This document shows, one piece after another, positions 1 through 36,204 of a DNA stretch of 36,204 bases. Numbering within the stretch: the first letter of the stretch is position 1; every line of letters starts with the position of its first letter. The translations under genes and the position numbers were made by a program. The DNA comes from a virus, in the IMG/VR virus record IMGVR_UViG_3300042868_008862, positions 1 to 36,204 of that record, one strand, 5' to 3'. Under the pieces are notes generated by a model. The model was not told the DNA's origin and made no database searches. It saw only the letters and a list, made by a program, of their open reading frames with translations.

Positions 1-1354
1 GGGTGTTAATGCTAGGGGTGTTTCAGATGAGGTAGCAAAAAATTTAACTAAACTTAATACATTTAATTTTAAAGGTGGTATAGAAGGGTTAACTAAAATG
101 GTAGCTCAGGCTAAAGTTTTAAGAATAAACATGGAAGAAGTTTTTACATTATCCGAAAGTTTATTCGAACCTGACAAAGCTATAGAAATGTCGGCGGCAT
201 TACAAAGATTAGGTGTTACACAATCTGAATTATTAGACCCACTTCGTTTGATGGATATGGCACAGAATGACCCTGGTGAGTTAATGAATCAAATGGCCAA
301 AATGTCGGAAAAATTTGTACAAATCAATAAAGATGGTCGTTTTGAAATTATGCCTGGAGCTAAAAGACAATTGATGGCAATTTCAAAAGAAATAAATATA
401 AGTTATGATGAATTAACAAAGATGGCTGTTGGTTCTAAGGAACTTGATATGAAATTAAGTAAAATCAAATTTCCTGCTACTTTTACCGAAGAACAAAGAA
501 ACTTCATAGCTAATTTATCAGAAATAGGTCCTGGTGGTGAAATGACTTTAACCGTTGATGGTACTCAAATGGGAATAGATAAAGCTATGGAAACTTTTGC
601 TAAAGACAAAGATGCTTTAGACAAATTTATGAAAGACCAAGAACCTAAAACGATGGAAGAGTTGGCAAAAGAACAACTTACTGTCCAAGAAAATCAAGAA
701 ATATTGTTGGCCATGATTGCAGACACTATGGGTTATGGTTTAGCAGCATCCAAAGGTGGTGAAAGATTAAGTAGGGCTGAGATAGAAATTTATAAAAATG
801 GTATCGAAGTATTAAAGAGAACAACTAAGGATAAAGAAGGTAAAGAAAAAACAGAAACATTTTCAGAAAAGGGAATTAGACAAGGTATTGGAACTCAGTC
901 AGATGATTTGATTAAAAGTTTATTCAAAGGTGATTTCAAAGGAGCTGGTGAGGCTGGCAGTAATATGGCCAACGAGTTTTACAATATGTTTAAGGAAAAA
1001 ATGGAAAAAGCTAGTGTTGTGTATAAAGAATCTAAAGTTGGAAGTATTTTGACTGGTGAGGATGAAAAAACTAAAACTCAAGTAGCAACTACCACAACAC
1101 CGAAAACAACTGAAATGAGTTATTTGGATAAATTACAAAAACAAGTACAAGCACCAACAACTCAAAACTTAAATTATAGTGGTAATTTAAATGTAACTTT
1201 TTCAGCCCCACCTGGTGTAAATACCACTGAGGTCGAAAGAGTGTTGAATGAACTTATGAAAAAACCTGAGTTTATTCAAATGATTGCTCAAATGGCCAAA
1301 GACCCAACAGGTAAACAAACTCCATCACAACAAAATATGAATTTTGGTAGATGA
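1..1354 (+). CDS. Probable tail tape measure protein, C-terminal part (5' end outside window)
   Basis: The reading frame is open from base 2 to the TGA at 1352-1354. The first in-frame ATG, at 98, is therefore internal and the gene begins before the window. About 450 residues are visible. They are largely helical and rich in Lys, Glu and Met, with many short amphipathic segments. Near the C-terminus comes a Thr/Gln-rich linker (about 108-55 residues before the end), then a short segment containing NVTFSAPPGVNTTEVERVL and a Pro/Gln-rich end. A long helical protein placed directly before baseplate hub genes fits a tape measure protein, which sets tail length and is ejected with the DNA. The call rests on composition, position and the look of the C-terminus. 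Another large helical virion protein is possible. Confidence 0.55.
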   Translation, partial: GVNARGVSDEVAKNLTKLNTFNFKGGIEGLTKMVAQAKVLRINMEEVFTLSESLFEPDKAIEMSAALQRLGVTQSELLDPLRLMDMAQNDPGELMNQMAKMSEKFVQINKDGRFEIMPGAKRQLMAISKEINISYDELTKMAVGSKELDMKLSKIKFPATFTEEQRNFIANLSEIGPGGEMTLTVDGTQMGIDKAMETFAKDKDALDKFMKDQEPKTMEELAKEQLTVQENQEILLAMIADTMGYGLAASKGGERLSRAEIEIYKNGIEVLKRTTKDKEGKEKTETFSEKGIRQGIGTQSDDLIKSLFKGDFKGAGEAGSNMANEFYNMFKEKMEKASVVYKESKVGSILTGEDEKTKTQVATTTTPKTTEMSYLDKLQKQVQAPTTQNLNYSGNLNVTFSAPPGVNTTEVERVLNELMKKPEFIQMIAQMAKDPTGKQTPSQQNMNFGR

Positions 1355-1371
1355 TAAAAAAAAAATTCATC

Positions 1372-1379
1372 TATTTATT
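1372..1379 (+). promoter_or_regulatory. Late-promoter-like TATTTATT box
   Basis: TATTTATT lies in the 38-base gap before the 1679-residue baseplate gene, 13 nt ahead of its ATG at 1393. It overlaps a perfect 14-base palindrome at 1375-1388 (TTATTTTAAAATAA). The same box at nearly the same spacing precedes the genes at 13841 and 26696. It resembles the T4 late promoter TATAAATA in length and composition. The promoter role is inferred. Confidence 0.5.
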
Positions 1380-1392
1380 TTAAAATAAGATT

Positions 1393-4300
1393 ATGTCCGA
1401 AAGTTCATTATCGTTTGCATCAACATCAAGTTTTAGAAATAGTTTACTGAATAGGAATTTACCCCCCTATGCAGTGACTGGTGTTTATACAGCACCTGTT
1501 GGTACTAGAACATATGAAACAAGTTTAAGTGATTACAATGTTATTAATTCACCTGATGATTTAATCTCACAGAATCCATTTGTAAGACAACTTTATCCGT
1601 TGAATGAGTATGGACCTGAAGGTGGATATAATTATACAATCACATACAATAACCCACCAATAATTAATAGTTCTAATCAAGGTGAATATAGTCCAAACGA
1701 CACAGTACTAGATTTAGTTAATGAATTTTTTATTGACGCAGCATATATCGAAAACAGATATGGTCCTGTGGGAGGATTCAATGATATGGTTATTATTGAT
1801 AACATACAAAACAATAATAAGTTATATACACCATATTGGAATCCCCCAACTTTTGTACCCTCTTCCTATAGTCCATATCAGATTCTAATTTCTCCTGACC
1901 CCGCTGGTGATAGTGGATTATTATCACAAGATTCATATTTAGCTAAGCTTGGGGCTCAAACTTTAAAAAAACTTTTTCAGGACAGAGTTGATGCTGATAC
2001 AAGAAGAAATACACAAGGCACTTTGACTCTTGATACAACAAGTGACCCTTTTGATATTTCTTTAATTATTGCGGGTAAAGAACCCTTGAGGTCTAAAAAT
2101 TGGACTATTACAGTACCAACAACACCAACTAATGAATCACCATTTATACAAAGTTTGGGGGGTGCATATTTTCCTGTATCACCTATTGCTGGTGATTATT
2201 TTGACCCTGTACTTTTTAATGCTGGTTCATCCACACAAATATCATTAGCTCTTAACGTACCTAATTTAACAACTGGAGGTGGAGGTTTACCACTCACCTT
2301 AAATATTACAACGAATCCATCACAGAATTTCATTGATAACACTGGTACAGGTCAACAATCAGCTTTATTTGCTAATATTGATTATAATAGATATAGAGCA
2401 CAATATACAAGAACTTCACAATTTGCACAAACTGAAAGTACAATAAATCAAAATGGTACTTTGAATGGTGGTTACTATGTGGGTAGTAGAACATCTGAAC
2501 CATCGACTATTACATCACCACCTTTACAAATACCTATTGACCCATTCGGAAGACAAGTACAAACACCGGTTTATGGACCTAGTGAGTTGGGTAGTTTATA
2601 TGAAGGAAATATTGGTCGATTAAATTTTGGTTTGGCTGGTAAATCATCATCTGATGGTGGAGGTATTGATGGTCAATTTGTGTGGGTTTCACCTAAATAT
2701 AAAAGTGATGCTGGTTTTAAAGCAACACCTGGTGGTGGTACTGGTTCACAAGATGAGGAATTTAATTTAATAAGTTCACAATATACAAGTAACGAATCAA
2801 CAAATTTACAATTCAAAGAAAGTTCTATTTTAGATGCAACTCAACGTCTTGTTAATTCGGCGGATTTAGTTAATGGTATTTCGAGATTAAAACACGTTGG
2901 AAATGCAATTAATCAAGTTAGTAAAGTTTTCAACGATGGATATAAAGAATTAACAAAAGGTTCAAGAGTTTTATCATATAGAGATAACACTACTGGTGCT
3001 GAAGCGGGTATTGAATATTGTAGGGTATTTGCAAAAGATACACCTTATTACACTTATGGTGATTTACAGAAATCAGATGGTATTACTAAATCAGGTAGAA
3101 GATTTGACTATTCTGTATTGGACAACACTTATAATTTAAACATAGCACCACTCAAAAATCCTGGTTCAACAAATCTACAACCAAATGCAAAAGGTCAAGT
3201 TGTTGCTAAAAAATATATGTTCTCAATTGAAAATCTTGCTTGGAGAACATCAAGTAAACCTGGGTTTACATATGATGATTTACCTGCATGTGAAAGAGGA
3301 CCTAATGGTGGTAGAATTATGTGGTTCCCACCCTATGATTTAACATTTGAAGATAGTGCTGATGTATCCTTCGATGCAACAACTTTTATTGGTAGACCTG
3401 AACCTATATATACTTACTCAAAATCAAGTAGAAGTGGTTCAGTAAATTGGAAAATCATAGTCGACCATCCTTCTGTTATGAACACAATTGTTCAAAAACA
3501 ACTTAAGGGTCAAACTAAAGAAAAAATTGATTCAATAGTTGATTCATTTTTTGCAGGTTGTGTAAAATTTGACATTTACGAATTAGCTAAAAAATTTAAT
3601 ACAATACCATTGTCTGAATTATATACATACCAAGAGGTTATTAATAATCCAAGATTAACCAAAGAAGAACTTGGTCAAGTTATAACAGAAATATCAAAAG
3701 AAAATGTACCACTTGGAGGACAAGATGGAGGAAATGTTACTCCACCTCAGGGTGTCAAAAAAACTACACCAGACCCAGCTAAACAAGCTTTTGTTGATGC
3801 CTATTTAGGTATAGGTTTTTATTTTGACAATGATATTCCATCATCTGGTGATATTCCATATAATAGTACTTATGATGGTTATATTTCAAAAAAAGAAACT
3901 TATAAAACGAATGCTGAATCAGCTTTTGCTTCAGGTGGAACTTATTGTAAACAAAATGTTGAATTTTGTAATAGAGCCAAAAATGTCAACGAGTTTTTCG
4001 ATTCTGTTGTAAAAACAAATTATGAAAAAGTTTCAAGTGGACAAAAGAATTTTATTACTGATGCCTTTGATTTATTGAATAATAAAAAAGGAACTATTAC
4101 TATAGAAATGGAGGGTGCTGCCTCAGCGACTGCGTCAGTTGATTACAATAAAAAATTGTCACAAAGAAGAATAGATTCAGTTGAAAGTTTCTTAAAATCT
4201 TTTAAAATCGGAGATGCTAATTTACAAAAATTTATTGATGATAAAAAACTAATAATTAAAGAAATTGCAAGTGGTGAACAAGCTAAAAGTGTTGTTCCCA

Positions 4301-6432: not shown

Positions 6433-6435
6433 ATT

Positions 6436-6759
6436 ATGGCAAGACAAACATATAACAGATACGCAGATTTTCTTTTAAACGGACAACAAACGATTGTTCC
6501 ATATATTCAACTACCAAACAAAAGTAGTGATAAAAGATACATTTATAAAATTGGGATGTCCAGAATGGATAAAGTGTCACAACAATATTATGGTTCTCCA
6601 ACTTTCGGTTGGTTAATCTTGATGGCTAATCCACAATATGGTGGACAAGAATGGAACATACCTGATGGTTCTATATTGACAATACCATATCCGTTAGTAA
6701 CTTCTTTACAAGATTACAAATCCCAATTAAACAATCATTTCTTCTATTATGGTAGATAG
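6436..6759 (+). CDS. Small LysM-like baseplate wedge protein (gp53-like)
   Basis: This is a 107-residue protein. The core VSQQYYGSPTFGWLILMANP, followed by WNIPDGSILTIPYPL, has the LysM-like pattern found in T4 gp53 and in small tail proteins: a short helix, YG(S/N)P, W.(I/L)LM.N, then an IPDG.....IP strand. In T4, gp53 closes the baseplate wedge and joins neighbouring wedges. The protein is shorter than T4 gp53 (about 196 residues) and is close to the bare LysM-like unit. It begins 3 nt after the upstream stop, and its last 11 bases overlap the start of the 2349-residue gene, so all three are probably co-translated. The fold call is fairly firm; equivalence to gp53 is inferred. Confidence 0.65.
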   Translation: MARQTYNRYADFLLNGQQTIVPYIQLPNKSSDKRYIYKIGMSRMDKVSQQYYGSPTFGWLILMANPQYGGQEWNIPDGSILTIPYPLVTSLQDYKSQLNNHFFYYGR

Positions 6760-13827: not shown

Positions 13828-13840
13828 AAAAACTAACAAT

Positions 13841-14065: not shown

Positions 14066-14067
14066 TA

Positions 14068-14784: not shown

Positions 14785-14791
14785 AACTTAA

Positions 14792-14860: not shown

Positions 14861-15712
14861 ATGGCGACAAATCCATTAGATGCTATTTTAGCTCAGTACG
14901 AACAATCACAAAAATCAGGTAGCAATACCAACAAAATGTCTCAAGATGAGAGAATGAAGAAATACTTCGCAGCTCTTCTTAAGGACAATGAAAAACAAGG
15001 ACAAAAAAGATTAAGAATCCTTCCAACTACAGATGGAAGCTCACCTTTCAAAGAGGTGTGGTTTCACGAAATCCAAGTAGATGGTAAATGGCAAAAGTTC
15101 TATGACCCAGGTAAAAATGATAATGAGCGTTCTCCACTTACAGAAGTATATGAAGAACTTATGTCAACTGGTAGAGATGCCGACAAAGAACTTGCAAAAC
15201 AATACAAGCCTCGTAAATTTTACATTGTTAAACTTATCGACAGAGATAATGAAAACGATGGAGTTAAGTTTTGGAGATTCAAACACAACTACAAAAACGA
15301 AGGTATCTTAGATAAACTTATTCCTATCTTTAGAGCAAAAGGTGATGTAACCGATTCTCAAAAAGGTAGAGATATTATCTTAGAGATGACCAAAGCAAAA
15401 ACCCCAAAGGGTGCAACATATACAGTTATTCAAACTATTATGTATGATGACCCAGCTCCACTCCACGAAAACAAAGAAACGGCTGAAGGTTGGTTAAATG
15501 ATGAACTAACTTGGGCTGATGTTTACTCTAAAAAACCAGTAGAATACTTGGAAGCTATTGCCAAAGGTGAAACACCAAGATGGGATAGTGAAAAGGGTGG
15601 TTATGTTTATAGTAACTCAGATTCAGGTGAAGTTGTATTAGGTGGTAAATCCACACCAACTTATTTGGATGATTCAGATGATTTCGAACCAAGTGGTGAC
15701 CTTCCGTTCTAA
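14861..15712 (+). CDS. 32: gp32-like single-stranded DNA-binding protein
   Basis: This 283-residue protein (T4 gp32 has 301) would coat ssDNA during replication, recombination and repair. The core resembles the gp32 OB-fold: KRLRILPTTDGSSPFKEVWF near residues 49-68, then RKFYIVKLIDRDN and FWRFKHNYKNEGILDKLIPI. The N-terminus holds a basic/Gln segment comparable to the gp32 cooperativity domain. The last 14 residues are acidic and end in SGDLPF, like the tip of bacterial SSB (DDIPF). There is no cysteine in the whole protein, so the gp32 zinc site is absent. It is first in the DNA-metabolism block, behind a host-type promoter and ahead of a strong hairpin terminator, so it can be transcribed separately at a high level. 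Identification is supported by the core pattern and by uvsX, helicase and nuclease downstream. Confidence 0.85.
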   Translation: MATNPLDAILAQYEQSQKSGSNTNKMSQDERMKKYFAALLKDNEKQGQKRLRILPTTDGSSPFKEVWFHEIQVDGKWQKFYDPGKNDNERSPLTEVYEELMSTGRDADKELAKQYKPRKFYIVKLIDRDNENDGVKFWRFKHNYKNEGILDKLIPIFRAKGDVTDSQKGRDIILEMTKAKTPKGATYTVIQTIMYDDPAPLHENKETAEGWLNDELTWADVYSKKPVEYLEAIAKGETPRWDSEKGGYVYSNSDSGEVVLGGKSTPTYLDDSDDFEPSGDLPF

Positions 15713-15768: not shown

Positions 15769-15996
15769 ATGAAAATTCAAATTAAAATGATTGATGCTCT
15801 TGCTCTAAAATATGAGAGTGAGATAGCAGAGGCTGAGGCCACCTTATTGGTTTATTTCTCTAATCCTGTTGGAATTGGTGAACATCCACAACACTTAGAA
15901 GAAATGGATAAGTATGTTGAGAAAATGGCTAATGCTAAAGACAAGTTGGAAACACTAAAAGAATTTGTAAAATATAATTTAAACAATGGCAATTAA
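15769..15996 (+). CDS. Small helical protein coupled to uvsX, function unknown
   Basis: This is a 75-residue, mostly helical, acidic protein. The central signature SNPVGIGEHPQHLEEMDKY, followed by a coiled-coil-like helix (KMANAKDKLETLKEFV), matches my memory of small uncharacterised proteins in T4-like phages; no function is known to me. A helix-(NPVGIGEH turn)-helix hairpin is likely. Its last 11 bases overlap the start of uvsX, implying translational coupling and possibly a shared process. The ATG at 15769 follows the terminator by only a few bases, so the gene relies on read-through or a promoter I cannot see. Confidence 0.7.
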   Translation: MKIQIKMIDALALKYESEIAEAEATLLVYFSNPVGIGEHPQHLEEMDKYVEKMANAKDKLETLKEFVKYNLNNGN

Positions 15997-16990
15997 GAAA
16001 ACGGATTTCAGTAGTATTAAAAAGAAGTTCTCTACCTCAGCAAAGTACAAACAACAAAGATACTTTGACTTGGGTACTGAGTTCTTGGATGCTGTTGGAT
16101 TACCAGGTCCTGCTGTAGGTCACCTAAATATGTTTTTGGGTCACTCTGATACTGGTAAAACAACTGCTTTAGTAAAAACTGCGGTAGATGCTCAAAGAAA
16201 GGGTATTCTACCTGTGTTCATAATCACAGAACAAAAATGGAGTTTTGAACACGCAAAATTGATGGGGCTACAATGTGAAGAAGTTGTAGACGAAGAAACA
16301 GGTGAAGTTGATTGGGATGGTTTTTATATCTTTAACAATAACTTCGAATACATTGAACAAATCACAGATTATATCAACGACTTACTTGATGCACAAGAAA
16401 AAGGTGACCTTGAATATAGTTTATGTTTTATGTGGGACTCAGTTGGTTCAATTCCTTGTAAAATGACCTTTGAAGGTAAAGGTGGAAAACAACATAACGC
16501 ATCAGTTCTTGCTGATAAAATTGGTATGGGTATTAATCAAAGAATTTCAGGTTCTAGAAAAGCGGACTCAAAGTTTGAAAATACTTTGATTATCGTGAAC
16601 CAACCATGGGTTGAGTTACCAGATAACCCCTTCGGACAACCAAAGATTAAAGCTAAAGGTGGTGAAGCAATATGGTTGAACTCTTCTTTGGTATTTTTGT
16701 TTGGTAATCAAAAAGGTGCTGGTACAACCAAGATTACGGCAACTAAAGATAAAAGAAGTGTTAAGTTTGCATCAAGAACTAAAGTATCTGTATTGAAGAA
16801 CCATATTAATGGTTTGGGATATGATGATGGTAAGATAATTGTAACTCCCCACGGATTCTTATCAGGTAAAGATACAACTGAAGAAAAAGCTTCTATTGAA
16901 AAATATAAGAAAGAATACGCAGATTATTGGAAAGATTTATTAGGTTTGGAGGGAGATTTCGATTTGAAAGAAGAAAAAGAATATGAATAA
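15986..16990 (+). CDS. uvsX: UvsX/RecA-type recombinase
   Basis: This 334-residue RecA-family ATPase forms filaments on ssDNA and catalyses homologous pairing and strand exchange, which in T4-like phages also starts recombination-dependent replication. Walker A is GHSDTGKTT at residues 52-60. The likely catalytic Glu is in ITEQKWSFE (E82). Walker B is LCFMWDSVGS with D151. Further RecA-like segments include ADKIGMGINQR, TLIIVNQPWV, and AKGGEAIWLNSSLVFLFG as the mobile-loop region. The C-terminus is acidic, as in RecA and UvsX. Its length is slightly below T4 UvsX (391). The start overlaps the small upstream gene by 11 bases, and its end overlaps the methyltransferase start by 8 bases. A recognisable UvsY mediator is not present in this window. 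Confidence 0.93.
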   Translation: MAIKKTDFSSIKKKFSTSAKYKQQRYFDLGTEFLDAVGLPGPAVGHLNMFLGHSDTGKTTALVKTAVDAQRKGILPVFIITEQKWSFEHAKLMGLQCEEVVDEETGEVDWDGFYIFNNNFEYIEQITDYINDLLDAQEKGDLEYSLCFMWDSVGSIPCKMTFEGKGGKQHNASVLADKIGMGINQRISGSRKADSKFENTLIIVNQPWVELPDNPFGQPKIKAKGGEAIWLNSSLVFLFGNQKGAGTTKITATKDKRSVKFASRTKVSVLKNHINGLGYDDGKIIVTPHGFLSGKDTTEEKASIEKYKKEYADYWKDLLGLEGDFDLKEEKEYE

Positions 16991-17990: not shown

Positions 17991-18998
17991 ATGACAAGAA
18001 CATTATTGGTCGATGGAAACAACCTCATGAAGATAGGTTTCCATGGTGTGAAAGATTATTATCATAATGGTAATCATATTGGGGGTATATGGCACTTCCT
18101 AAACACTATTAGAAGATTCATTGAAGAATATAACTTTGACAAATCGGTTGTGTTTTGGGATGGCGAGGGTAACTCAAGTAAAAGAAAAATCATTTACCCC
18201 CAATATAAAGAAAACAGAATCCAAGAATCTAACGAGTTTAAGGTTCAATCATTTACCTATCAAAAAGAGAGGGTAAAACAATACTTGGAGGAGATGTTCA
18301 TTCGTCAAGTGAACATAGAAAATAACGAAGCTGATGACTTAATTGCTTATTATTGTCAAATAGCAACTGACGAAAAGATTACCATTTTTTCATCGGATAA
18401 AGATTTAACCCAACTTATATCACAGAATGTTTCCATTTATTCACCATCAGCCAAGCAATTGTATAGTTTTGGTGATAAAATTAAACTTAAAGAACATGAG
18501 ATTCCTCACAACAATATTTTAACATATAAAATATTGGCAGGAGATAAATCTGATAATATTGATGGAATCTATTATTTGGGTGACAAAACTTTATTTAAAT
18601 TATTTCCCGAACTACTTGAACAAGATGTAACAATTAACGATATTTTATCCAAGGCTGAAAATCTCCTCAAAGAAGATAAAGAGAATAACACACTCAAAAA
18701 TCTTTTAACAGGTAAGACAAAGACAGGAATTTATGGGGAAGAATTTTTTCAAATCAACCAAAAGATTGTAGATTTGTCAGACCCATTGATAGATGATGAG
18801 GGGAGAGAGGTGGTTGAATTATATTATAAGGAAACACTTGACCCCGATGGAAGAGGACATCGAAATCTAATTAAAATGATGATGGAAGATGGATTCTTCA
18901 AGTTCTTACCAAAAGGAGATGATGCTTGGGTGAACTTCTTAAAACCCTTTTTAAAACTAACAAGAAAAGAAAAACACAATTTTAAAACAAAAAAGTAA
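17991..18998 (+). CDS. rnh: RNase H / FEN-family 5'-3' nuclease
   Basis: This 335-residue protein belongs to the T4 RNase H/FEN-1 family (T4 Rnh has 305), which removes RNA primers and flap DNA from lagging-strand fragments. The metal-binding acidic residues are in place: D8 in LLVDGNNL, D57 in VFWDGEGNSSKR, E113/D115/D116 in NNEADDLIAYY, D136/D138 in FSSDKDLTQL, and D185/D188 in LAGDKSDNIDG, followed by a helix-hairpin-helix-like region. The C-terminus is basic. The ATG immediately follows the methyltransferase stop with no gap. Neighbouring uvsX, helicase and ssDNA-binding genes agree with a replisome role. Confidence 0.9.
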   Translation: MTRTLLVDGNNLMKIGFHGVKDYYHNGNHIGGIWHFLNTIRRFIEEYNFDKSVVFWDGEGNSSKRKIIYPQYKENRIQESNEFKVQSFTYQKERVKQYLEEMFIRQVNIENNEADDLIAYYCQIATDEKITIFSSDKDLTQLISQNVSIYSPSAKQLYSFGDKIKLKEHEIPHNNILTYKILAGDKSDNIDGIYYLGDKTLFKLFPELLEQDVTINDILSKAENLLKEDKENNTLKNLLTGKTKTGIYGEEFFQINQKIVDLSDPLIDDEGREVVELYYKETLDPDGRGHRNLIKMMMEDGFFKFLPKGDDAWVNFLKPFLKLTRKEKHNFKTKK

Positions 18999-19483: not shown

Positions 19484-20860
19484 ATGTCATCTAACAAAAA
19501 TTTTGATTATTTAGGGAGCTCATTTCAGATACAACTACTTAATCAAATTGTGGTAGATAGTACCTTTTCAAGGTCAATAATTGATGTAATAGAACCTAAT
19601 TATTTCGAAAACAAATACTTCAAACTCATCATACAGATGATTAAAGAGTATAATCAAAAGTGGGACTCAGTGCCCACTTTTGACACATTGGAACAAATCA
19701 CAAAATCTGAGTTTCAACAAGAACAAATTGCCAAAGTAGTAATTGATACTCTTAAGAAAATTAAGGATGCACCTATCTCTGGTGGGGATTTCGTTCAAGA
19801 GAAAGCGTTAAAGTTCTGTAAACAACAAGAGTTACAAAAAGCTATCACTAAAGCACAAAAAGTAATTGATGGGGGTGAGTTCGAAAACTACGATACCCTT
19901 GAGGAAATGATTAGAGATGCCCTACAAGTGGGTATCAATGAAAACGGAATGTTGAGTGTATTCTCCAACCTTGATGATGTATTAAATGAAGATTTTAGAC
20001 ATCCAATCCCAATGGGTATTGGTGGTATTGATAGATTGTTAAAAGGTGGTTTGGCAAAGGGTGAGATAGGTGTTGTGTTAGCACCAACAGGTGTAGGAAA
20101 ATCGACATTCTTGACCAAGATTGCAAACCACGCTTTTAACTTGGGTTATAATGTCCTTCAAATATTTTTTGAGGATAATCCCAAGGTTATTCAAAGAAAA
20201 CATTTTACATTATGGACTAAAATCCACCCTGATGATATGTCTAACAAGAAAGAGGAAGTAATGATGAGAGTTAAGGAGATTGAACAAAAAATGGACAATC
20301 AACTTATCTTGGAAAAACTTCCTTCAGATACAATGACAATGACACAAATCAAAAATCTTGTAAGAAAAAAGATTGCTGATGGATGTAAAATTGATATGAT
20401 TTTATTAGATTACATCGATTGTGTTGTTCCTGAGAAAAACTTGGGTGATGAATGGAAATCGGAGGGTTCAGTTATGAGAGCATTTGAAGCAATGTGTCAC
20501 GAATTGAACTTGGTTGGATGGACTGCAACACAAGGTAATAGAAGTTCAATATCTGCTGAAGTTGTAACAACTGACCAAATGGGAGGTTCAATTAAGAAAG
20601 CTCAAGTAGGTCACGTAATTATATCTGTAGCAAAAACATTACAACAAAAAGAAATGAAGTTGGCAACAATTGCGATTACAAAATCAAGGATTGGTGATGA
20701 TGGAATTATCTTCGAGAACTGTAAGTTTGATAATGGAATGTTGGATATCGATACAGAATCTTCAGTTACGTTCTTGGGACACGAAGAACAAAAAGAAGAA
20801 AACAATAGACAAAGAATTAAAGATTTATTAGAAAAGAGAAAACAAAGAGAAAACACTTAA
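19484..20860 (+). CDS. 41: Replicative DNA helicase (gp41/DnaB type)
   Basis: This is a 458-residue hexameric 5'-3' helicase of the DnaB/T4 gp41 family (gp41 has 475), which unwinds DNA at the fork and works with primase. The N-terminal helical domain (to about 150) is followed by a RecA-like motor: [20 protein letters not shown] leads into Walker [10 protein letters not shown] at 200-208, then [12 protein letters not shown] (H1a-like), Walker B MILLDYID with D309, and [11 protein letters not shown], the sensor (H3/H4) region. The C-terminal 25 residues are charged. The gene is followed by nrdB after 2 nt. No primase is visible in this window. Confidence 0.92.
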
Positions 20861-20862: not shown

Positions 20863-21813
20863 ATGACAGAAAAAATTTTAACAGAAAATCCAAATCGTTT
20901 TGTAATTTTCCCCATTCAATACCACGATATTTGGGAATACTATAAACAACATCAGGCAGCATTTTGGACAGCAGAAGAGGTTGACTTGACTGGTGATATC
21001 AGAGAGTGGCAGAACTTATCGGAGAATGAACAATACTTCGTTAAAAATATATTATCATTCTTTGCCGCATCAGATGGTATTGTTAATGAGAATTTGGCTG
21101 AAAACTTTTATAGAGAAGTTCAATATCCTGAAGCTAAGTTTTTCTATGGATTTCAATTGATGATGGAAAATATCCATTCTTTAATGTATTCTTTGTTAAT
21201 CGATACTTATATATCTAATCCAAAAGAGAAAGACGAATGTTTTAATGCAATTGACAGATTACCTGCGGTTCAAAAGAAAGCTAAATGGGCATTCGAATGG
21301 ATTGAAAAAGCATCATTCCAAGAAAGATTAGTTGCTTTTGCTGCGGTTGAAGGTATATTCTTTTCAGGTTCATTCTGTTCTATTTTCTGGTTGAAATCAA
21401 GAGGAATTATGCAAGGACTTTGTAATGCGAACTCCTTGATTTTTAAAGATGAAAACCTACATTGTGATTTCGCAATTCACTTGTTGAACAACCACGTTGA
21501 GAACAAACCAAGTGAAAAAAGAATCAAAGAAATATTACTTTCTGCTTTGGAGATTGAGAAAGAGTTTATCACAGAATCACTACCTGTATCTTTAATTGGA
21601 ATGAACTCCAACCTTATGAAACAATATTTGGAGTTTGTTGTTGATGGTTTGTTGGTTAAGTTTGGATGTAGCAAACAATTTAATGTAGAACAACCATTCA
21701 AGTTTATGGAACAAATTGCAATTGAAACTAAAGGTAATTTCTTTGAGTCAAGAACTATGGAGTATCAAAAAGCAAAACTTAACGAAACTATTTCATTCAC
21801 AGACGATTTTTAA
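20863..21813 (+). CDS. nrdB: Ribonucleotide reductase class I, beta (small) subunit
   Basis: This 316-residue protein houses the di-metal site that generates the radical for aerobic ribonucleotide reduction. All metal ligands are present: D71 (AASDGI), E102 and H105 (MMENIHS), E163 (AVEGIFF), and E197 and H200 (KDENLH). The radical Tyr is Y109 ([10 protein letters not shown]). The C-terminal ISFTDDF matches the peptide that docks into the alpha subunit. The [16 protein letters not shown] pattern is of the eukaryote/Bacteroidota-like type rather than the E. coli NrdB or NrdF type. It lies 9 nt before nrdA in one unit with the helicase. It should raise dNTP supply for phage replication. Confidence 0.95.
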
Positions 21814-21822
21814 AAATTAATT

Positions 21823-24240
21823 ATGTCATTAAGAATTCAAAAAAGAGATGGGGAGGTTGTGGCCTTTAATCCCACCAAAATACAAAACAGAATTAAAAAA
21901 GCTAGTAAGAACTTAAATGTAAACTCAGACCAGATTTTCATTAAGGTTATTACTTCAGTACCAACAGAAGGTGTAATTTCAACAAAACAATTGGATAAAT
22001 TGATTTATGAGATTGCCGCATCATATACAGGTAGCCACCACGATTATTCGAGGTTGGCTTCTTCTGTTGCAATATCCTCATATCATAAAGAAACAAATGA
22101 AAGTTTTTGTGAGACAATGAAATCATTGGCTAATGTTGGAATCGTTAATCAAGAATTAATTAATATGATTGATTCATATGGTGATTCTAACATTGATGAG
22201 GTAATTAATCACGAGAACGATTATAACTTTGATTACTTTGCTTGGCGTTCATTATTTGAAATGTATTTGTTAAAAACACCTGAAGGTGTTACTGTGGAAA
22301 GACCCCAACATATGTATATGAGGGTAGCTCTATGGGTAACAAAGTCATTTGATGAAGCGGTTGAATATTATAAGTCATTATCAAATCAACTTATTTCTCC
22401 TGCAACACCAATTATGATTAATGCGGGTACAAAGATTCCACAATTGGCTTCTTGTGTACTTCATTATAATGATGCGGATTCAAGAGAAGGTTTATTGGCA
22501 ACAATGAATGATATCTCTACGTATTCTGCTGATGCAGCAGGTATTGGACTTTGTATGTCAAACATTAGAAGTAAGGAGAGTAGATTAAGTACATCAGGTG
22601 GATTTGCTGGTGGATTATTGAAATATCTTAAGATTGTAAATGAATCATTAAGATTCTTTAATCAACAAGGAAGAAGACCTGGTTCTGCCGCGATTTACCT
22701 TGAACCTTGGCATAAAGATATCTTTGACCTATTGGATATCAAAAAGAATACTGGGGCTGAAGAACTAAGAGCAAGAGATTTATTCACCTCTTTATGGTTA
22801 CCTGATAATTTTATGAGAGCTGTGAAAGAAGATGGGGAATGGTATTTATTCTGTCCAAATGATATTAAGAAAGCTGGTTTAAAACCATTACAAGAATGTT
22901 TTGGTGATGAATACGAAAGTGTTTATAACCAAGCTATAAGTTTAGGATTAGGAAAAAAAGTTAATGCACAAGATGTTTGGACTAAGGTAATTGAATCTCA
23001 AATTGAGACTGGTGTACCTTACCTTTGTTCTAAAGATAATGCTAACAACAAAACTAATCATCAGAACATTGGGGTTATCAAACAATCAAATCTTTGTAAC
23101 GAGATTTACCAATTTACTGACGAGAAAACTACAGCTATCTGTACTCTATCTTCAATGGTGTTGAAAAACTTTGTAAAAGATGGTGAGTTTAATTTTAGAC
23201 TTCTTTATGAAGAAACAAGAAAGGTTGTTAGAGCCCTTAATAAAGTTGTTGATATTAATAACTATTCAACTTCAAAAGGTGAAAAGGGTGGTAAAGAACA
23301 AAGAGCAATTGCAATTGGAACTCAAGGTTTAGCGGATGTATTCTATCTTATGGATTATGAGTTTACTTCAGACGAAGCAAAACAACTAAACAAAGATATC
23401 TTTGAGACAATTTATTTTGCCGCAATCACCGAAAGTAATAGGTTGGTAATTGATGGTGATTATAAACCATATGATTTCTTCGATGGTTCACCAATGTCAC
23501 AAGGACAATTCCAATTTGATATGTGGGGACTAACAGAATCTGATTTATCAGGTAGATGGCCTTGGGAAGTATTAAAGTCAAATGTTAAACAATATGGTAT
23601 TTGTAACTCATTGTTTACTGCACAAATGCCTGTAGCAAGTTCAGCTAAGATTACTGGTTCATACGAAATGACAGAACCTGCTCACTCAGCTATCTTTAAC
23701 AGACGTGTAGTTGGTGGTGAAATTATGATTGTTAACAAGTATCTAATCAGTGACTTTGAGAAACTTGGAATATGGGGAGAAGACCTTAAAAATGAAATCA
23801 TTTATAATGAGGGGTCAATCCAAAATATTAATTTCAACAACTACTTAGACACAGAAGATAAGAAGTACAATCAAAAGGTTAAAAGAATTGAACACTTGAT
23901 TAAGAAGTACAAAACGATTTGGGAAATATCTCAAAGAGAGTTGATTGATATGGCAGCAGATAGAGGACCTTTCATTGACCAATCACAATCAATGAATATC
24001 TATATGGGTAATCCTACTTTATCGAAGATTACTTCATCTCACTTCCACGCTTGGCAAAAAGGTTTAAAAACACTTTGTTATTATGTGAGAACAAAAGCAA
24101 TCTCAACAGGAGCAAAACACTTGGCTATGGATATATCTAAGATGGATAAACCGAAAGTAACACCAACATTACCCCACGTTGAACCAGTTACAAACAAACC
24201 AACGGATTCACCTTTTGAATGTTTTGGATGTTCATCTTAA
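21823..24240 (+). CDS. nrdA: Ribonucleotide reductase class I, alpha (large) subunit
   Basis: This is an 805-residue catalytic subunit that reduces ribonucleoside diphosphates to deoxyribonucleotides. An N-terminal ATP-cone (RIQKRDGEVVAFNPTKI, residues about 3-90) gives allosteric activity control. Catalytic residues are present: C211 (QLASCVLH), the N423-C425-E427 group (SNLCNEI), C440 (AICTLSS, the second redox Cys), and the Y753-Y754 radical-transfer pair (CYYVRT). The C-terminal C800 and C803 (ECFGCSS) form the shuttle dithiol that is re-reduced by thioredoxin or glutaredoxin. Length and motifs are complete. It closes the DNA-metabolism block, and a strong terminator begins 8 bases after its stop. 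Confidence 0.96.
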   Translation: MSLRIQKRDGEVVAFNPTKIQNRIKKASKNLNVNSDQIFIKVITSVPTEGVISTKQLDKLIYEIAASYTGSHHDYSRLASSVAISSYHKETNESFCETMKSLANVGIVNQELINMIDSYGDSNIDEVINHENDYNFDYFAWRSLFEMYLLKTPEGVTVERPQHMYMRVALWVTKSFDEAVEYYKSLSNQLISPATPIMINAGTKIPQLASCVLHYNDADSREGLLATMNDISTYSADAAGIGLCMSNIRSKESRLSTSGGFAGGLLKYLKIVNESLRFFNQQGRRPGSAAIYLEPWHKDIFDLLDIKKNTGAEELRARDLFTSLWLPDNFMRAVKEDGEWYLFCPNDIKKAGLKPLQECFGDEYESVYNQAISLGLGKKVNAQDVWTKVIESQIETGVPYLCSKDNANNKTNHQNIGVIKQSNLCNEIYQFTDEKTTAICTLSSMVLKNFVKDGEFNFRLLYEETRKVVRALNKVVDINNYSTSKGEKGGKEQRAIAIGTQGLADVFYLMDYEFTSDEAKQLNKDIFETIYFAAITESNRLVIDGDYKPYDFFDGSPMSQGQFQFDMWGLTESDLSGRWPWEVLKSNVKQYGICNSLFTAQMPVASSAKITGSYEMTEPAHSAIFNRRVVGGEIMIVNKYLISDFEKLGIWGEDLKNEIIYNEGSIQNINFNNYLDTEDKKYNQKVKRIEHLIKKYKTIWEISQRELIDMAADRGPFIDQSQSMNIYMGNPTLSKITSSHFHAWQKGLKTLCYYVRTKAISTGAKHLAMDISKMDKPKVTPTLPHVEPVTNKPTDSPFECFGCSS

Positions 24241-24247
24241 AAATAAG

Positions 24248-24274
24248 AATCACGACCTTAAGTCGTGATTTTTT
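24248..24274 (+). terminator. Rho-independent terminator after nrdA
   Basis: AATCACGAC (24248-24256) and GTCGTGATT (24262-24270) form a perfect 9-bp stem with loop CTTAA, running into a T tract (24269-24274, then more Ts after one G). It separates the DNA-metabolism unit from the baseplate wedge unit that starts at 24321. Confidence 0.9.
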
Positions 24275-24283
24275 GTTTTATGG

Positions 24284-24291
24284 TATTTATA
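24284..24291 (+). promoter_or_regulatory. Late-promoter-like TATTTATA box before gene 25
   Basis: TATTTATA sits just after the nrdA terminator, 29 nt ahead of the gene 25 ATG at 24321. It is the better placed of two such boxes in this gap, since a transcript from here would include the whole start region. Confidence 0.4.
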
Positions 24292-24309
24292 GAAAAAATA
24301 TAGGGTATA

Positions 24310-24317
24310 TATTTATT
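24310..24317 (+). promoter_or_regulatory. Second TATTTATT box before gene 25
   Basis: TATTTATT ends only 3 nt before the ATG at 24321. A promoter here would give a transcript starting at or inside the start codon, so this copy may be chance, part of a tandem pair, or a sign that another start is used. Confidence 0.25.
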
Positions 24318-24320
24318 GTT

Positions 24321-24779
24321 ATGGCAAATGGTTTTACATATGGTATAAATTTCCCATTCAAGGATTCTTATGAAGGAAATTACTTAAGTTTATCTCAAAC
24401 AACTGAACAAGAAATCAGAAGTAATTTAATTCATTTATTGTTAACTAGAAAAGGTACAAGATATTATTTACCTGACTTTGGAACAAGATTATATGAGTAT
24501 CTATTCGAACCTTTGGATGGTCCTACTTTTTCTGATTTAGAATCAGAAATTAGAGATTCTGTTGCGGAATTCATACCTGGTATAACAATAACAAATGTGA
24601 CTATAACACCTGCCTCGGAGGGTGAAGAAGATAAAGGATACTACATAAATGAAGATAACCAAAGAGAGTTTAGAGTACCAGGTATTGGACAAATGGAACA
24701 CACAGCAAAAATAAAAATTGACTACATATCAACTGATACTGCTTTTGAAAGTAGTGACTTTGTAATTATTAATATATAA
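24321..24779 (+). CDS. 25: Baseplate wedge protein gp25
   Basis: This is a 152-residue protein of the gpW/gp25 family (T4 gp25 has 132). It links baseplate and sheath and has a lysozyme-like ancestral fold. The family core is clear: TEQEIRSNLIHLLLTRKGTR, the PDFGTRLYEYLFEP signature, and a helix with EIRDSVAEFIPGITITNVTI. An acidic insertion (SEGEEDKGYYINED) precedes the final strands. The frame stays open upstream to an ATG at 24219, but that start would overlap nrdA and read through its terminator. The ATG at 24321 is chosen because it follows the boxes and gives the normal N-terminus. Gene 6 follows after 4 nt. Confidence 0.92.
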   Translation: MANGFTYGINFPFKDSYEGNYLSLSQTTEQEIRSNLIHLLLTRKGTRYYLPDFGTRLYEYLFEPLDGPTFSDLESEIRDSVAEFIPGITITNVTITPASEGEEDKGYYINEDNQREFRVPGIGQMEHTAKIKIDYISTDTAFESSDFVIINI

Positions 24780-24783
24780 TTCT

Positions 24784-26622
24784 ATGGCTAACAAAAAAAT
24801 ATCATATACAACCAGAGATTTCCAATCCATAAGAACGGAACTTATTAATTTTACAAGAACATATTACCCAGACCTAATTGATAATTTCAATGATGCCTCA
24901 ATATTTTCGGCTCTATTGGATTTAAATGCTGCGGTTTCAGATAACTTACAATACAATATAGATAGAAGTGTACAAGAAACCGTACTACAATATGCACAAC
25001 AAAGGTCTTCCATTTTTAATATAGCAAGAACTTATGGACTGAAAGTACCTGGTCAAAGACCTTCTGTGGCATTGGTTGATTTCTCAATAACAGTGCCTGT
25101 TTATGGTGATACTGAGGACTTAAGATATTGTGGTATTTTAAGGAGAGGGTCTCAGGTTAATGGGGCTGGTCAAGTTTTTGAAACTGTGAGTGATATTGAT
25201 TTTGCTTCGCCAATAAGTTCGGATGGTGTTCCAAATAGATTAAAAATACCAAATTTTGATTCTAATAATAGATTATTAAACTACACCATAGTAAAACGAG
25301 AAACTGTAGTAAATGGTACTACAAAGGTATTCAAGAGAGTTATTACCGCAAATGACATAAAACCTTTTTTTGAGTTGTTTTTACCCGAAAGAAACGTTTT
25401 AGGTGTAACGAGTGTTTTACTTAAAGATGGTACTCAATATGCAAATGTCCCTACAGCTGAAGAATTTTTAGGTTTAGAAAATAGATGGTATGAAGTTAAA
25501 GCATTGGTTGAAGATAGGGTATTCATCGAAGACCCAACCAAAGTATCTGACAATCCTGGTATTAAGGTAGGAAAATATGTTCAAACAAATACAAAATTTA
25601 TATCAGAATTTACACCTGAGGGTTTCTGTAAATTAACTTTTGGTGGTGGTAGTCAATCAGCAGACGAACAATTAAGAGAATTTGCTAGAAATGGTTTTGA
25701 ATTAAACTTATACAAATATTCAAACAACTTTGCTTTAGGTAGTACATTGAAAGCTAATAGTACACTATTCATTCAATATAGAATAGGTGGAGGTACTGGA
25801 AGTAATTTAGGCGTAAACGTAATTACTCAGATAGGTACAATAAACTTTAATGTCAACGGACCTTCAACTTCGGTAAATACAAGTGTAATTAATTCTTTGT
25901 CTTGTACAAATGTCACTGCAGCAATTGGAGGAGCACCAGCACCAACTACCGAAGAAGTAAGAAATTTAGTGACATTCAACTTTTCAGCACAAAACAGAGC
26001 TGTTACAATTAATGATTATGAATCATTAATAAGAACAATGCCTTCACAATTTGGAGCACCAGCCAAGGTTACAATCACAGAGGAGAACAATAAAATTAAA
26101 ATTAAAATGTTGTCTTATGATGAAACTGGTAGATTGACTGAGGTGGTTTCAAACACACTCAAAAATAACGTAGCTAATTACTTATCGAATTATAGAATGA
26201 TTAATGACTACATTTCTATCGAAACTGCGAATGTAATCGACTTAGCATTTACGATAGATGTTGTTTTAGATAATAGTCAGAATCAAGGTGCCGTAATAAC
26301 TCAAATCGTTGATAATGTAACTAATTTTATGTCACCTTCAGTTAGAAACTTAGGTGAAAATGTTAATATATCAGAATTAAGAAGAATATTACAATCACAG
26401 AATGGTGTAATAACTCTATCAAACATATCGGTGTTTAATAAAGTAGGTGGTGAATATTCATCATCTCAAACATCACAAAGGTATTCAGATAGTGAAACTA
26501 AACAGATTGAATTAATAGATGACACAATTTTTGCAGAACCTAGTCAAACTTATCAAGTAAGATATCCTGGTAAAGATATTAGTGTGCGTGTTAAGAATTT
26601 GAGTACGGTCAATTTTTCGTAA
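24784..26622 (+). CDS. 6: Baseplate wedge protein gp6
   Basis: This 612-residue protein (T4 gp6 has 660) is a Baseplate_J-related wedge protein that forms the inner iris of the baseplate. The N-terminus SYTTRDFQSIRTELINF followed by DNFNDASIFSALLDLNAAVS is typical of gp6-like proteins, as is the following helix with RSVQETVLQYAQQRS. The central part holds beta segments (VALVDFSITVPV) and the QYRIGGGTGSNLGVNV segment. The segment TTEEVRNLVTFNFSAQNRAV followed by DYESLIRTMPSQFGAPAKV is the second Baseplate_J-type block. It lies 4 nt after gene 25, with the gp7-position gene downstream, matching the 25/6/7 functional group of contractile tails. Confidence 0.88.
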   Translation: MANKKISYTTRDFQSIRTELINFTRTYYPDLIDNFNDASIFSALLDLNAAVSDNLQYNIDRSVQETVLQYAQQRSSIFNIARTYGLKVPGQRPSVALVDFSITVPVYGDTEDLRYCGILRRGSQVNGAGQVFETVSDIDFASPISSDGVPNRLKIPNFDSNNRLLNYTIVKRETVVNGTTKVFKRVITANDIKPFFELFLPERNVLGVTSVLLKDGTQYANVPTAEEFLGLENRWYEVKALVEDRVFIEDPTKVSDNPGIKVGKYVQTNTKFISEFTPEGFCKLTFGGGSQSADEQLREFARNGFELNLYKYSNNFALGSTLKANSTLFIQYRIGGGTGSNLGVNVITQIGTINFNVNGPSTSVNTSVINSLSCTNVTAAIGGAPAPTTEEVRNLVTFNFSAQNRAVTINDYESLIRTMPSQFGAPAKVTITEENNKIKIKMLSYDETGRLTEVVSNTLKNNVANYLSNYRMINDYISIETANVIDLAFTIDVVLDNSQNQGAVITQIVDNVTNFMSPSVRNLGENVNISELRRILQSQNGVITLSNISVFNKVGGEYSSSQTSQRYSDSETKQIELIDDTIFAEPSQTYQVRYPGKDISVRVKNLSTVNFS

Positions 26623-26644
26623 AGATTTATTTTGAATTGTATTG

Positions 26645-26694: not shown

Positions 26695-26695
26695 A

Positions 26696-33864: not shown

Positions 33865-34702
33865 CAACAGATATTATATAACATTACCAGTAACCTCACA
33901 AGAGATAAACATACCAATAGAAATTACAGAAGATTTCTTAGGAAGGTCTGATAGTATTGAACTTTATGAAGATGAGGTTTTGGGTCAAGTTATTGGTATT
34001 CCATTTGATTTTGAAGTTGGTAGATATTCACATAATGAATATTCACCAACAAACACACAAACATCAGTTAACTACGAATTCTACTTTTATAGTGGAAATC
34101 CTAACACTTTGAGTGCAACAACATGCCCTTTATCAAGTTCACCTGATTTAACACTTTGGGGGAATAATTATTTGGCTGAAGGTTTCAATTCAAAAGAATT
34201 GTATTACTTTGCTAACTCTTTTGCAAATTCGTTTTTCAAACTTGATTTTTACGATAGACCTGACGAAAAAAACCAAACTAATTATTTTACCGTAATAATA
34301 CCAACTCAACAAGGTTTTACGACAACAGCGTCAATTTCACCTTACATAGCACCAGTACAAGTTAAAATACCAAAGTATAAATTGGATTTTGTTGGTGACA
34401 AAGAGGGTTTCTTTTTTTATTGGTTAAATGTACCACAATTTTTGACATTAGATACTTTTTATATGTCAATGAAATTTTTTGATGCAAAGTTGGGTGTTTT
34501 TGTAAGAATGATGAATGAACCTCAATGTCGATTACCAAACAAATACCAATTTGATTCAAGTATATATTTTTATAATAAAGTGAAACTGAATTACGATACA
34601 AAAAAATATGAAATTTTTGATGGTAAAAATCATAATAATAGAATAGGTACAACGACAAATCCTATGAAGTGGTACGAATATGTTAATCCACCAAATTTAT
34701 AA
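33857..34702 (+). CDS. Structural-type protein of unknown function, GTG start
   Basis: This is a 281-residue protein. The start is GTG at 33857, because an in-frame TAG at 33848 leaves no upstream ATG and the N-terminus NNNRYYITLPVTSQEINIPI reads as a complete beta-strand start. The middle is rich in Phe, Tyr and Asn. The C-terminal part contains a compact segment, FFFYWLNVPQFLTLDTFYMS, then KFFDAKLGVFVRMMNEPQCR. I do not recognise the family. It overlaps its upstream neighbour by 8 bases and the next gene by one (TAATG), so it belongs to the same coupled structural unit. The alternative non-ATG start codons just upstream (ATT, ATA) are less likely. Confidence 0.6.
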   Translation: MNNNRYYITLPVTSQEINIPIEITEDFLGRSDSIELYEDEVLGQVIGIPFDFEVGRYSHNEYSPTNTQTSVNYEFYFYSGNPNTLSATTCPLSSSPDLTLWGNNYLAEGFNSKELYYFANSFANSFFKLDFYDRPDEKNQTNYFTVIIPTQQGFTTTASISPYIAPVQVKIPKYKLDFVGDKEGFFFYWLNVPQFLTLDTFYMSMKFFDAKLGVFVRMMNEPQCRLPNKYQFDSSIYFYNKVKLNYDTKKYEIFDGKNHNNRIGTTTNPMKWYEYVNPPNL

Positions 34703-35880
34703 TGGAAAGTACAATTTATAACATAAGAATTTCACCTGAAAATATATCCAACGATTTATTTATTGTTCCGTATTTCGGAGGATTTTCCCCACAAATTAGT
34801 GGAGACCCTTGTTGTGTTACGACTTTTTCAACAACACAAAAATATGAAGGATTTACGTATGTTTACTCCTCTATGACAAATGTTTTATCAGGCGGTACTA
34901 ATGGGACTTCTTTATTAACAGGACTAACATTACCTATTTTATTTACACAATCAGCTGTAGATTTCGGATATTATTCAGTATTTGATGGAATGATATTACA
35001 ACAAGATGTAATGACTAATTTTGTCTTTACAGGCTCAACCATATTCCCAAACAATTTTACAGTAATTCTTTACAATACATCAGAAATAGAACTAAAAAAA
35101 TACTTGAGTTTTTCGAACTATCAAATTAGTTGGGGCGATGGTTCAACAACAACTATTGGACCTTATACTTCAACACCTTATACTCACACATATAGTTCTG
35201 CTGGAGAATATACAATAACTATGTCGGGCATGAGTCCTTGGGGTTATAACACAATTCAAAAAACACTAACAATACCATTCTCTTCAACTACGATTAACAA
35301 TCCAAATGGTACTGCGTATTTTACCCCACTTGGTGGAAGTTGGTCAGGAAGTGCTTTGAATTACAATTTTATTTATAGTGGTGATTCAGATTGTGAAACA
35401 ACAATAGAAGGATTCAATACATTTTTGGGTAACTCAGATTTAATCATATCAGGTTATAGTAAATCAGGACTTAATGATTTGGAAGTTTATGGTTCAATTA
35501 ATAACCCTAATTTTTATTTAGGAAAATATAAAATCGGATGGCAAGTTACAGGTAGTTCCAATGTTGTTGGTACTTTTTGGGGACCGAATCCAAATGGTTA
35601 TACAGCATATACTATTAATGGTGTTGATTACTATGACTATCCTGATGGTACGACTTTATTCATCGTTAGTGGTGTGTCTGAGGTTGATTATGTTTGTTCT
35701 GCTATAACTAAAAATGAAGCACTACTCAATGTTATTGATGAACCTGCAATACAAACAAATGTTTTTGTTGAAAGGGGTAAGAATTCGGGTATTGAAACGA
35801 TGATAAGATTGGGGGAGGTTGATAATCTTGGGGATTTAGATAATTATGGCTACGGATTTTTTAAAGTTACAAAGTTGTAA
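34702..35880 (+). CDS. Structural protein with PKD-like domain
   Basis: This is a 392-residue beta-rich protein. Residues about 118-190 form a PKD-like Ig-fold: the WGDG turn at 144-147 (YQISWGDGST), the HTYSSAGEYTITMSG strand pair, and a closing TLTIP strand. PKD domains are common surface-binding or spacer modules in virion and cell-surface proteins. The conserved-looking C-terminus VFVERGKNSGIETMIRLGEV with YGFFKVTKL may be an attachment domain. The start overlaps the upstream stop by one base. The stop codon lies inside a perfect hairpin. A role in the baseplate periphery or host-surface contact is plausible from domain content and position. Confidence 0.65.
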   Translation: MESTIYNIRISPENISNDLFIVPYFGGFSPQISGDPCCVTTFSTTQKYEGFTYVYSSMTNVLSGGTNGTSLLTGLTLPILFTQSAVDFGYYSVFDGMILQQDVMTNFVFTGSTIFPNNFTVILYNTSEIELKKYLSFSNYQISWGDGSTTTIGPYTSTPYTHTYSSAGEYTITMSGMSPWGYNTIQKTLTIPFSSTTINNPNGTAYFTPLGGSWSGSALNYNFIYSGDSDCETTIEGFNTFLGNSDLIISGYSKSGLNDLEVYGSINNPNFYLGKYKIGWQVTGSSNVVGTFWGPNPNGYTAYTINGVDYYDYPDGTTLFIVSGVSEVDYVCSAITKNEALLNVIDEPAIQTNVFVERGKNSGIETMIRLGEVDNLGDLDNYGYGFFKVTKL

Positions 35881-35894
35881 CTTTAATATTTATT
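35861..35894 (+). terminator. Candidate terminator hairpin overlapping the stop codon at 35880
   Basis: TTAAAGTTAC (35861-35870) and GTAACTTTAA (35877-35886) are perfect reverse complements, giving a 10-bp stem with a 6-base loop followed by T-rich TATTTATT. The TAA stop lies in the right arm. The stem is A/T-rich and the T tract is interrupted, so termination may be partial; a translating ribosome would open it. Confidence 0.5.
35887..35894 (+). promoter_or_regulatory. Late-promoter-like TATTTATT box abutting the hairpin
   Basis: TATTTATT begins at the base after the 10-bp hairpin and lies 41 nt before the ATG at 35936. Spacing is longer than at the best sites, but it is the only gap in the last 4 kb and marks the start of a new gene. 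Confidence 0.4.
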
Positions 35895-35935
35895 AATAGG
35901 TTAGTCAATATAAACTTAGAATAAAAGAATAATAA

Positions 35936-36204
35936 ATGGCACTCGCAAGTTATGGTACTATAAGACCATCAGATGTTTCACCAGAAGACGTTGAGATAAT
36001 TTTACATTATACCCCATCAAGGGATGATACAGCTAATTTTGTATTGACTAAATTAGATTCAGTTTCATTATTGAGACCATACTTTAACAATAGTAGTACT
36101 GGTGGAAATGCTAACATAGAAATATTAGGTGGTTTATATAATTTAAAATTACCTGCTGACCAATTTAATGTTATTGGAATTTACACAATTTATTTAAGAC
36201 CAAC
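35936..36204 (+). CDS. Unidentified phage gene, N-terminal part (3' end outside window)
   Basis: Eighty-nine codons are visible from the ATG at 35936 and the frame is still open at the window edge. The protein starts MALASYGTIRPSDVSPEDVE and continues with alternating beta-like segments (FVLTKLDSVSLLRPYF, then NIEILGGLYNLKLPADQFNV). There is no signal peptide. Location after the baseplate wedge genes suggests a further virion protein, but I cannot identify it. Confidence 0.6.
   Translation, partial: MALASYGTIRPSDVSPEDVEIILHYTPSRDDTANFVLTKLDSVSLLRPYFNNSSTGGNANIEILGGLYNLKLPADQFNVIGIYTIYLRP

Follow-up and report, generated by a model that had tools for sequence, protein, structure and literature searches.

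Complete absence of GATC from a T4-like phage fragment and several long relatives, with host restriction as the probable driver

Why should a stretch of viral DNA lack one particular four-base word altogether? This question is raised by the IMG/VR virus record IMGVR_UViG_3300042868_008862, a fragment of a T4-like phage, which we analysed over its whole length of 36,204 bases (the window). According to an earlier note on this DNA, the palindrome GATC is missing here, about 100 copies would be expected, and CTAG, GGCC, CATG and CCGG do occur. The exact string count is indeed 0, which covers both strands because the word is palindromic. At a guanine plus cytosine (G+C) content of 32.1%, 105.6 copies are expected from base composition, 88.7 from a first-order and 106.5 from a second-order Markov model, in agreement with the previous estimate. 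In the second-order model, the ratio of observed to expected counts is lower for GATC than for any other of the 256 four-base words. The other four palindromes are present as claimed, though three of them are depleted as well (observed/expected: CATG 13/86, CCGG 3/13, CTAG 32/60), as are CGCG (1/3.6) and GCGC (1/4.8); GGCC (15/10) and GTAC (119/110) show no deficit. When synonymous codons were shuffled within each gene of the window, which preserves protein and codon usage, 30 shuffles predicted 92±5 copies of GATC.

In order to follow the trait beyond this fragment, we let relatives stand in for the rest of the genome. They were collected by means of the cytosine-C5 DNA methyltransferase encoded in the window (best 80 of 87 loci) and the terminase of the long relative G002 (best 80 of at least 592 loci); the counts thus describe near relatives and not the whole family. 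Over 35,872 aligned bases, the window shares 97.5% identity with G002 (194,498 bases), a record that contains no GATC, with 571 expected. Zero counts were also obtained for G001 and G003, which are almost identical to G002, and for the more distant G014 (0/186) and G021 (0/67). Two still longer whole records extend the finding: G332 (293,850 bases; GATC 0/745, CCGG 0/200) and G333 (272,437 bases; GATC 0/782, CATG 34/706). G332 has a 126-base direct repeat near both ends and is classed as linear by IMG/VR, completeness not being claimed. The four-base word counts against Markov expectation, which the earlier note had proposed for the window and the rest of the genome, therefore give zero GATC in the window, G002, G332 and G333. 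The note had called near-total loss of one palindrome the usual mark of host restriction; this wording turned out to be too mild, as zero in 194-294 kb is extreme and further four-base words have been purged in some relatives.

Among the terminase loci, GATC is absent from 51, below half of its expectation in 28 and normal in one, and the GATC-free state spans lineages whose terminases are about 75% identical, with records of up to 294 kb. Other relatives retain GATC to differing degrees: about 8-10% of expectation in G004, G005, G007, G008 and G015, about 20% in G013 and G027, about 65% in G025 and G026, and about 85% in G018 and G019; G334 has 315 of 884 expected copies. CCGG is the second lost word in both G332 and G339. 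In G337 (104,339 bases, similar G+C), the same type of purge is seen at another palindrome: TCGA is nearly gone (2/95) while GATC stays normal (410/395). The loss is thus specific to the site and to the lineage. An artefact of a single sample was rejected, as GATC content is unequal among contigs from one metagenome (observed/expected in 3300034063: L004 0/67, L051 6/18; in 3300044638: L009 9/72.5, L027 0/15.7). A number of longer words are scarce in G002, namely CCGTC (0/29), CGACG (0/21), ATGCAT (0/17), GGACCC (0/17), GGTACC (4/44), GGAACC (13/70) and AGACT (31/159); they may be marks of further restriction specificities.

The genes of the relatives show how the word is avoided. Synonymous shuffling with protein and codon usage kept predicts 405±16 GATC in the genes of G002, 528±7 in those of G332 and 543±11 in those of G333; the observed number is 0 in each case. 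In G002, all 252 aspartate codons standing before a C are GAC, a codon used in only 634 of 3455 cases elsewhere. Likewise, none of the 531 isoleucine codons following a G is ATC, and none of the 80 serine codons following xGA belongs to the TCN type. The same exclusive use of GAC before C is found in G332 (297/297), G333 (309/309) and G339 (92/92), whereas in the GATC-normal G337 it is limited to 51 of 288 codons. These findings show selection on the GATC word itself, acting at synonymous sites.

A comparison of the window with G002 indicates that the state is actively maintained and not merely inherited. The two sequences differ by 891 substitutions; placing these at random with the same spectrum creates 14.1 new GATC sites, and there is none in either sequence. 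By our own estimate, about 1.6% of random substitutions make a GATC; this influx is small, and modest selection per site could keep the count near zero. We also aligned the GATC sites of six partners to G002 (176 sites). None of them is GATC in G002, which is trivially so, and only the synonymous share of the differences is informative. Synonymous changes outnumber nonsynonymous ones for G027 (31/8), G013 (12/5), G007 (10/7) and G008 (9/5); taken alone, the values for the distant G018 (59/57) and for G004 (10/13) give no preference to synonymous change.

How often the state has changed was assessed on two trees. A methyltransferase tree of 71 rows, out of 81, omits rows with a methyltransferase match of less than 280 amino acids or an expectation below 10; it has 45 distinct rows, and the zero-GATC state changes eight times, at least five of these changes being forced by well-supported branches. 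A terminase tree of 81 rows comprises the 80 terminase loci plus G002 (eight further records yielded no row); 59 of its rows are distinct, and again there are eight changes, at least six of them forced. Note that many rows are identical in both trees and that the labels zero and partial are noisy where loci are short: a locus with 10-20 expected sites may lack GATC by chance although its lineage is only partly depleted. In the terminase tree, the outer family is mostly in the zero state and most partly depleted rows cluster near G002, which suggests that the absence may date far back and have been relaxed here and there. The ancestry is not settled by these trees because of midpoint rooting and gene exchange. 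A sign of such exchange is visible at window positions 15986-16990, as two recombinase types (one like that of the window, the other about 60% identical) adjoin similar C5 methyltransferases. We put forward tentatively that complete GATC loss is a long-standing hallmark of a jumbo-phage family, with a second lost palindrome depending on the lineage, so that the set of missing words would record the restriction enzymes of the hosts.

What might have driven this selection? We consider it likely that GATC was purged by host restriction. A lineage of large T4-like phages would have stripped its genome of all GATC, largely by synonymous changes, and would keep it in this state, driven by repeated exposure, in Bacteroidota hosts, to GATC nucleases like Sau3AI, MboI/DpnII or DpnI. 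A site-free genome could not be cut by GATC nucleases and would need no protective GATC methylation. With respect to the earlier proposal of selection by host restriction, the selection is borne out by the synonymous avoidance, the 891 substitutions without a GATC and the long relatives; the agent, that is a host nuclease, as well as its kind and the host are what we infer.

The window and its recognised genes are listed here; every open reading frame of the window that exceeds 200 amino acids lies on the plus strand.
1..36204, no strand: whole window, T4-like phage fragment without GATC (exact count, synonymous shuffling)
14861..15712, plus strand: gp32-like single-stranded DNA binding protein (PF08804, 9.8e-13)
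15986..16990, plus strand: UvsX/RecA-like recombinase (PF00154, 8.1e-4, under the Pfam cut-off; 40% identity to the recombinase of Flavobacterium phage immuto)
16983..17990, plus strand: cytosine-C5 DNA methyltransferase with no sign of GATC recognition (PF00145, 3.7e-57)
17991..18998, plus strand: 5'-3' exonuclease, T4 RNase H-like (PF02739, 3.4e-30)
19484..20860, plus strand: DnaB-like replicative helicase (PF03796, 5.9e-11)
20863-21813, plus strand: ribonucleotide reductase small chain (PF00268, 1.7e-106)
21823-24240, plus strand: ribonucleotide reductase large chain (PF02867, 6.7e-161)
24219-24779, plus strand: gp25-like baseplate wedge protein (PF04965, 9.4e-11)
24784-26622, plus strand: baseplate J/gp6-like wedge protein (PF04865, 1.4e-6)

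Several weak clues, taken together, point to hosts that are probably Bacteroidota. The only annotated phages matching the recombinase of the window are four records of immuto, a phage which infects Flavobacterium. In genome records, relatives of the recombinase were found at eight places, four of which are titled Winogradskyella, Flavobacteriales or Flavobacteriaceae, and two as unnamed bacteria. Of 201 genes called in G002, just two have AGGAG or GGAGG within 20 bases before the start. The motif TAnnTTTG, the -7 promoter motif of Bacteroidota, precedes 14 of the 57 G002 genes that leave room for a promoter (200 shuffles: mean 4.9, maximum 10).

A search for GATC nucleases in candidate hosts, as the earlier note had suggested, gave a mixed answer: the families are present in a flavobacterial order, but in few genomes. 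The sample consisted of 296 genomes from the order of one flavobacterial record with a recombinase relative, and curated family cut-offs were applied. One genome exceeded the cut-off for DpnII, eight for MutH/Sau3AI and five for DpnI (one of them with an internal stop); one genome is counted in both of the latter sets. No DpnII-family match was found in any of six genomes carrying a recombinase relative. The MutH/Sau3AI-family frames of the eight genomes comprise 417-481 amino acids, and seven of them contain two MutH stretches, some of the second ones being weak. At five of the six loci fetched, a C5 methyltransferase gene matching that of the window adjoins the MutH/Sau3AI gene, which is the layout expected for Sau3AI-type systems. 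The genomes themselves bear on the question as well: in ten pieces of six nuclease-bearing flavobacterial genomes GATC amounts to 28-84% of its expectation, in four pieces of four other genomes to 75-96%, one of these genomes having a broken DpnI match below the cut-off. In Prevotella intermedia, a GATC system is marked as active, its nuclease being 51% identical to MboI (PMC5608340); Flavobacterium psychrophilum has an orphan GATC methyltransferase, i.e. one without its nuclease (PMC11837570). GATC restriction pressure thus exists in the likely host group, though it is rare in the sampled genomes.

A number of observations weigh against host restriction as the driver and have to be set beside this evidence. 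Few genomes of the sampled order possess GATC nuclease families, and such rarity fits a family-wide absence poorly, unless the real hosts are richer in them or other GATC systems act. The lone DpnII-family match is a weak one at 29.7 bits, and since a C5 methyltransferase adjoins it, its specificity for GATC is doubtful. The closest recombinase match in genome records (59%) is titled Prochlorococcus and another one Aliivibrio. In the same G002 regions, the opposite strand also contains nine copies of TAnnTTTG. Finally, a methyltransferase of the D12 family is present in the GATC-free G332 and G333, so this gene does not track the trait.

The last point belongs to a wider survey of the methyltransferases of these phages. 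Adenine methyltransferase genes were found, within 16 phage records and mostly by means of PF02086, in G004, G005, G008, G025 and G026, and in broken form in G007; none of the families searched occurs in the zero-GATC records G001, G002, G003, G014 and G021 of this set. The idea that GATC is regained once an adenine methyltransferase is carried was dropped, since the GATC-free G332 and G333 carry D12, and G018 and G019, which are near-normal fragments, lack all three families. The D12 gene of G004 fails the Dam model (TIGR00571, 67.8 bits versus a cut-off of 114.85) and reaches 26-27 bits against solved chains named DNA adenine methylase, which we take to be E. coli Dam. Altogether, the adenine methyltransferases of the relatives have no consistent relation to GATC content. 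For the C5 methyltransferase of the window, the closest solved chains are 8c56 and 4dkj (1e-44), the latter presumably the CpG enzyme M.MpeI, followed by M.HhaI (1e-29). Four flavobacterial enzymes encoded beside Sau3AI-like genes have a long target region which this protein lacks; its catalytic part is 31-37% identical to theirs. In G332 and G333, the genes for recombinase and exonuclease adjoin, and no relative of the enzyme turned up among the proteins called there. A role of this enzyme in protecting GATC, or a link to the loss of the word, was dropped on account of the dissimilar target region and of this negative result in the two GATC-free records. The remark in the earlier note that the phage's own cytosine methyltransferase gains nothing from GATC is therefore fair, there being no sites to protect.

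Could the absence have come about without restriction by the host? Mutation or composition bias, or a composition inherited from the host, would make selection on the word superfluous, and all 14 pieces of eight flavobacterial genomes do lie under their GATC expectation (13/47 to 92/96). However, none of these pieces is near zero. The Markov expectations for the window and the synonymous shuffling led us to reject base or codon composition as the cause; the contrast between 0 and 405±16 in G002, and the normal count in G337 at similar G+C, refute it as a sufficient cause, and we give it next to no credence. Alternatively, the word might be avoided on account of methyl-directed mismatch repair, with MutH acting at GATC, or of Dam-type methylation, as for phiX174 in Escherichia coli. 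That phage is without GATC, and inserted sites lower its mutation rate (PMC5014478). The orphan methyltransferase of F. psychrophilum would suit such an account, too. Yet further palindromes have been lost besides GATC, and the mostly doubled MutH-family frames described above, with a C5 methyltransferase beside five of six, have the layout of Sau3AI and not the length of MutH. We therefore consider this explanation very improbable.

Selection could also originate from the phages themselves, if a GATC nuclease of their own destroyed host DNA and the site had been purged from the phage genome for this reason. It is in line with such self-avoidance that the absence extends across a deep phage family and that G002 contains homing-type uncharacterised genes, one of which has a restriction-endonuclease-like match below the cut-off (PF18741, 31.5 bits; cut-off 38.2). 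However, no gene of the MutH/Sau3AI or DpnII families was found in the 16 phage records, which include the window and G002; this search covered neither G332 and G333 nor the DpnI family. Moreover, no evident nuclease is encoded by the genes that the GATC-free G332, G002 and G333 have in common and that G334 or G025 lacks, as judged from protein starts and known-gene matches only; G025 and G334 may be incomplete. Scans of 80 of the 201 G002 proteins with padloc (25 of the 78 families) and Pfam (25 of the 51 families) leave room for a nuclease. On balance, self-avoidance seems quite improbable to us. A non-classical GATC-directed defence of the host, such as phosphorothioation of the Dnd type, is unlikely, though it has a precedent: in connection with the HF1 haloviruses, mention is made of an archaeal antiviral phosphorothioation system that modifies GATC (PMC7230728). 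The small number of genomes with classical GATC nuclease families agrees with a defence of this kind.

Purging of a palindrome by restriction, which we prefer as the explanation, is as such already known. The Staphylococcus phage K (140 kb) has lost GATC under Sau3A pressure (PMC6532042). For phage K the host enzyme is known, whereas for the present phages the host is deduced from clues, sequences are as long as 294 kb and close relatives differ in their state. In the HF1 haloviruses, both GATC and CTAG are absent (PMC7230728); as here, a whole virus group lacks more than one palindrome and has methylases unable to act on the lost site. The HF1 viruses differ in having archaeal hosts with described systems and in that both words are gone in all isolates, whereas the second lost word varies in the present family, from CCGG in G332 and G339 to G337 with TCGA nearly lost and GATC intact. 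Moreover, a survey of 46 phages from hosts with a corresponding Type IIM enzyme showed GATC to be under-represented in every one of them (PMC6286503). The recently described moraphages, jumbo phages of 200-307 kb with predicted Bacteroidota hosts, are similar to our phages in genome size, in the predicted phylum of the host and in many of their listed functions. Functions shared with G002 or the window are PhoH, a Clp-type ATPase, a sigma factor, a prohead protease, gp25, gp6, a terminase, a UvsW-like helicase and DnaJ (PMC12619734). Neither GATC nor methyltransferase occurs as a word in the main text of that paper.

In Flavobacterium phage immuto (Immutovirus), the genes for DNA-binding protein, recombinase, exonuclease, DnaB and ribonucleotide reductase follow one another as in the window, except that the recombinase and the exonuclease are not separated by a C5 methyltransferase. 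Immuto has annotated 7-deazaguanine DNA-modification genes, and its GATC content is near-normal (155/195 in the first 50 kb; L170, 1-50000). On the basis of gene content, DNA modification in immuto and GATC loss in our phages may represent two answers to restriction within one gene neighbourhood.

Searches of openly licensed papers on GATC or palindrome avoidance and on jumbo and Flavobacterium phages, judged by titles and the beginnings of abstracts, brought up no description of a 200-300 kb genome free of GATC. It is the scale and the changeable family-wide pattern that are new. Genomes of 194-294 kb without one four-base site, in which hundreds of synonymous positions are steered, illustrate the strength and duration of the action of one class of bacterial defence. 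Near relatives with none, a few per cent or a normal amount of GATC, which moreover lack different sets of other words, constitute a natural experiment on the speed at which restriction avoidance is gained and lost. For phages known from metagenomes only, missing words may mark the restriction of the host; if this is true, they would make host prediction possible.

Some further observations concern modification genes of the relatives. In G025 (L092, 205008-207092), the C5 methyltransferase is split by an intein-like insert located exactly inside the catalytic Pro-Cys motif, and a split C5 methyltransferase match within one long frame of G026 looks like the same case. About 2.5 kb outside the stretch of G002 equivalent to the window, a protein of 518 amino acids with a DUF7487 match is encoded on the minus strand (L105:17921-19477); it has weak matches, below the cut-off, to the Mom (adenine modification) and PvuRts1I-like families.

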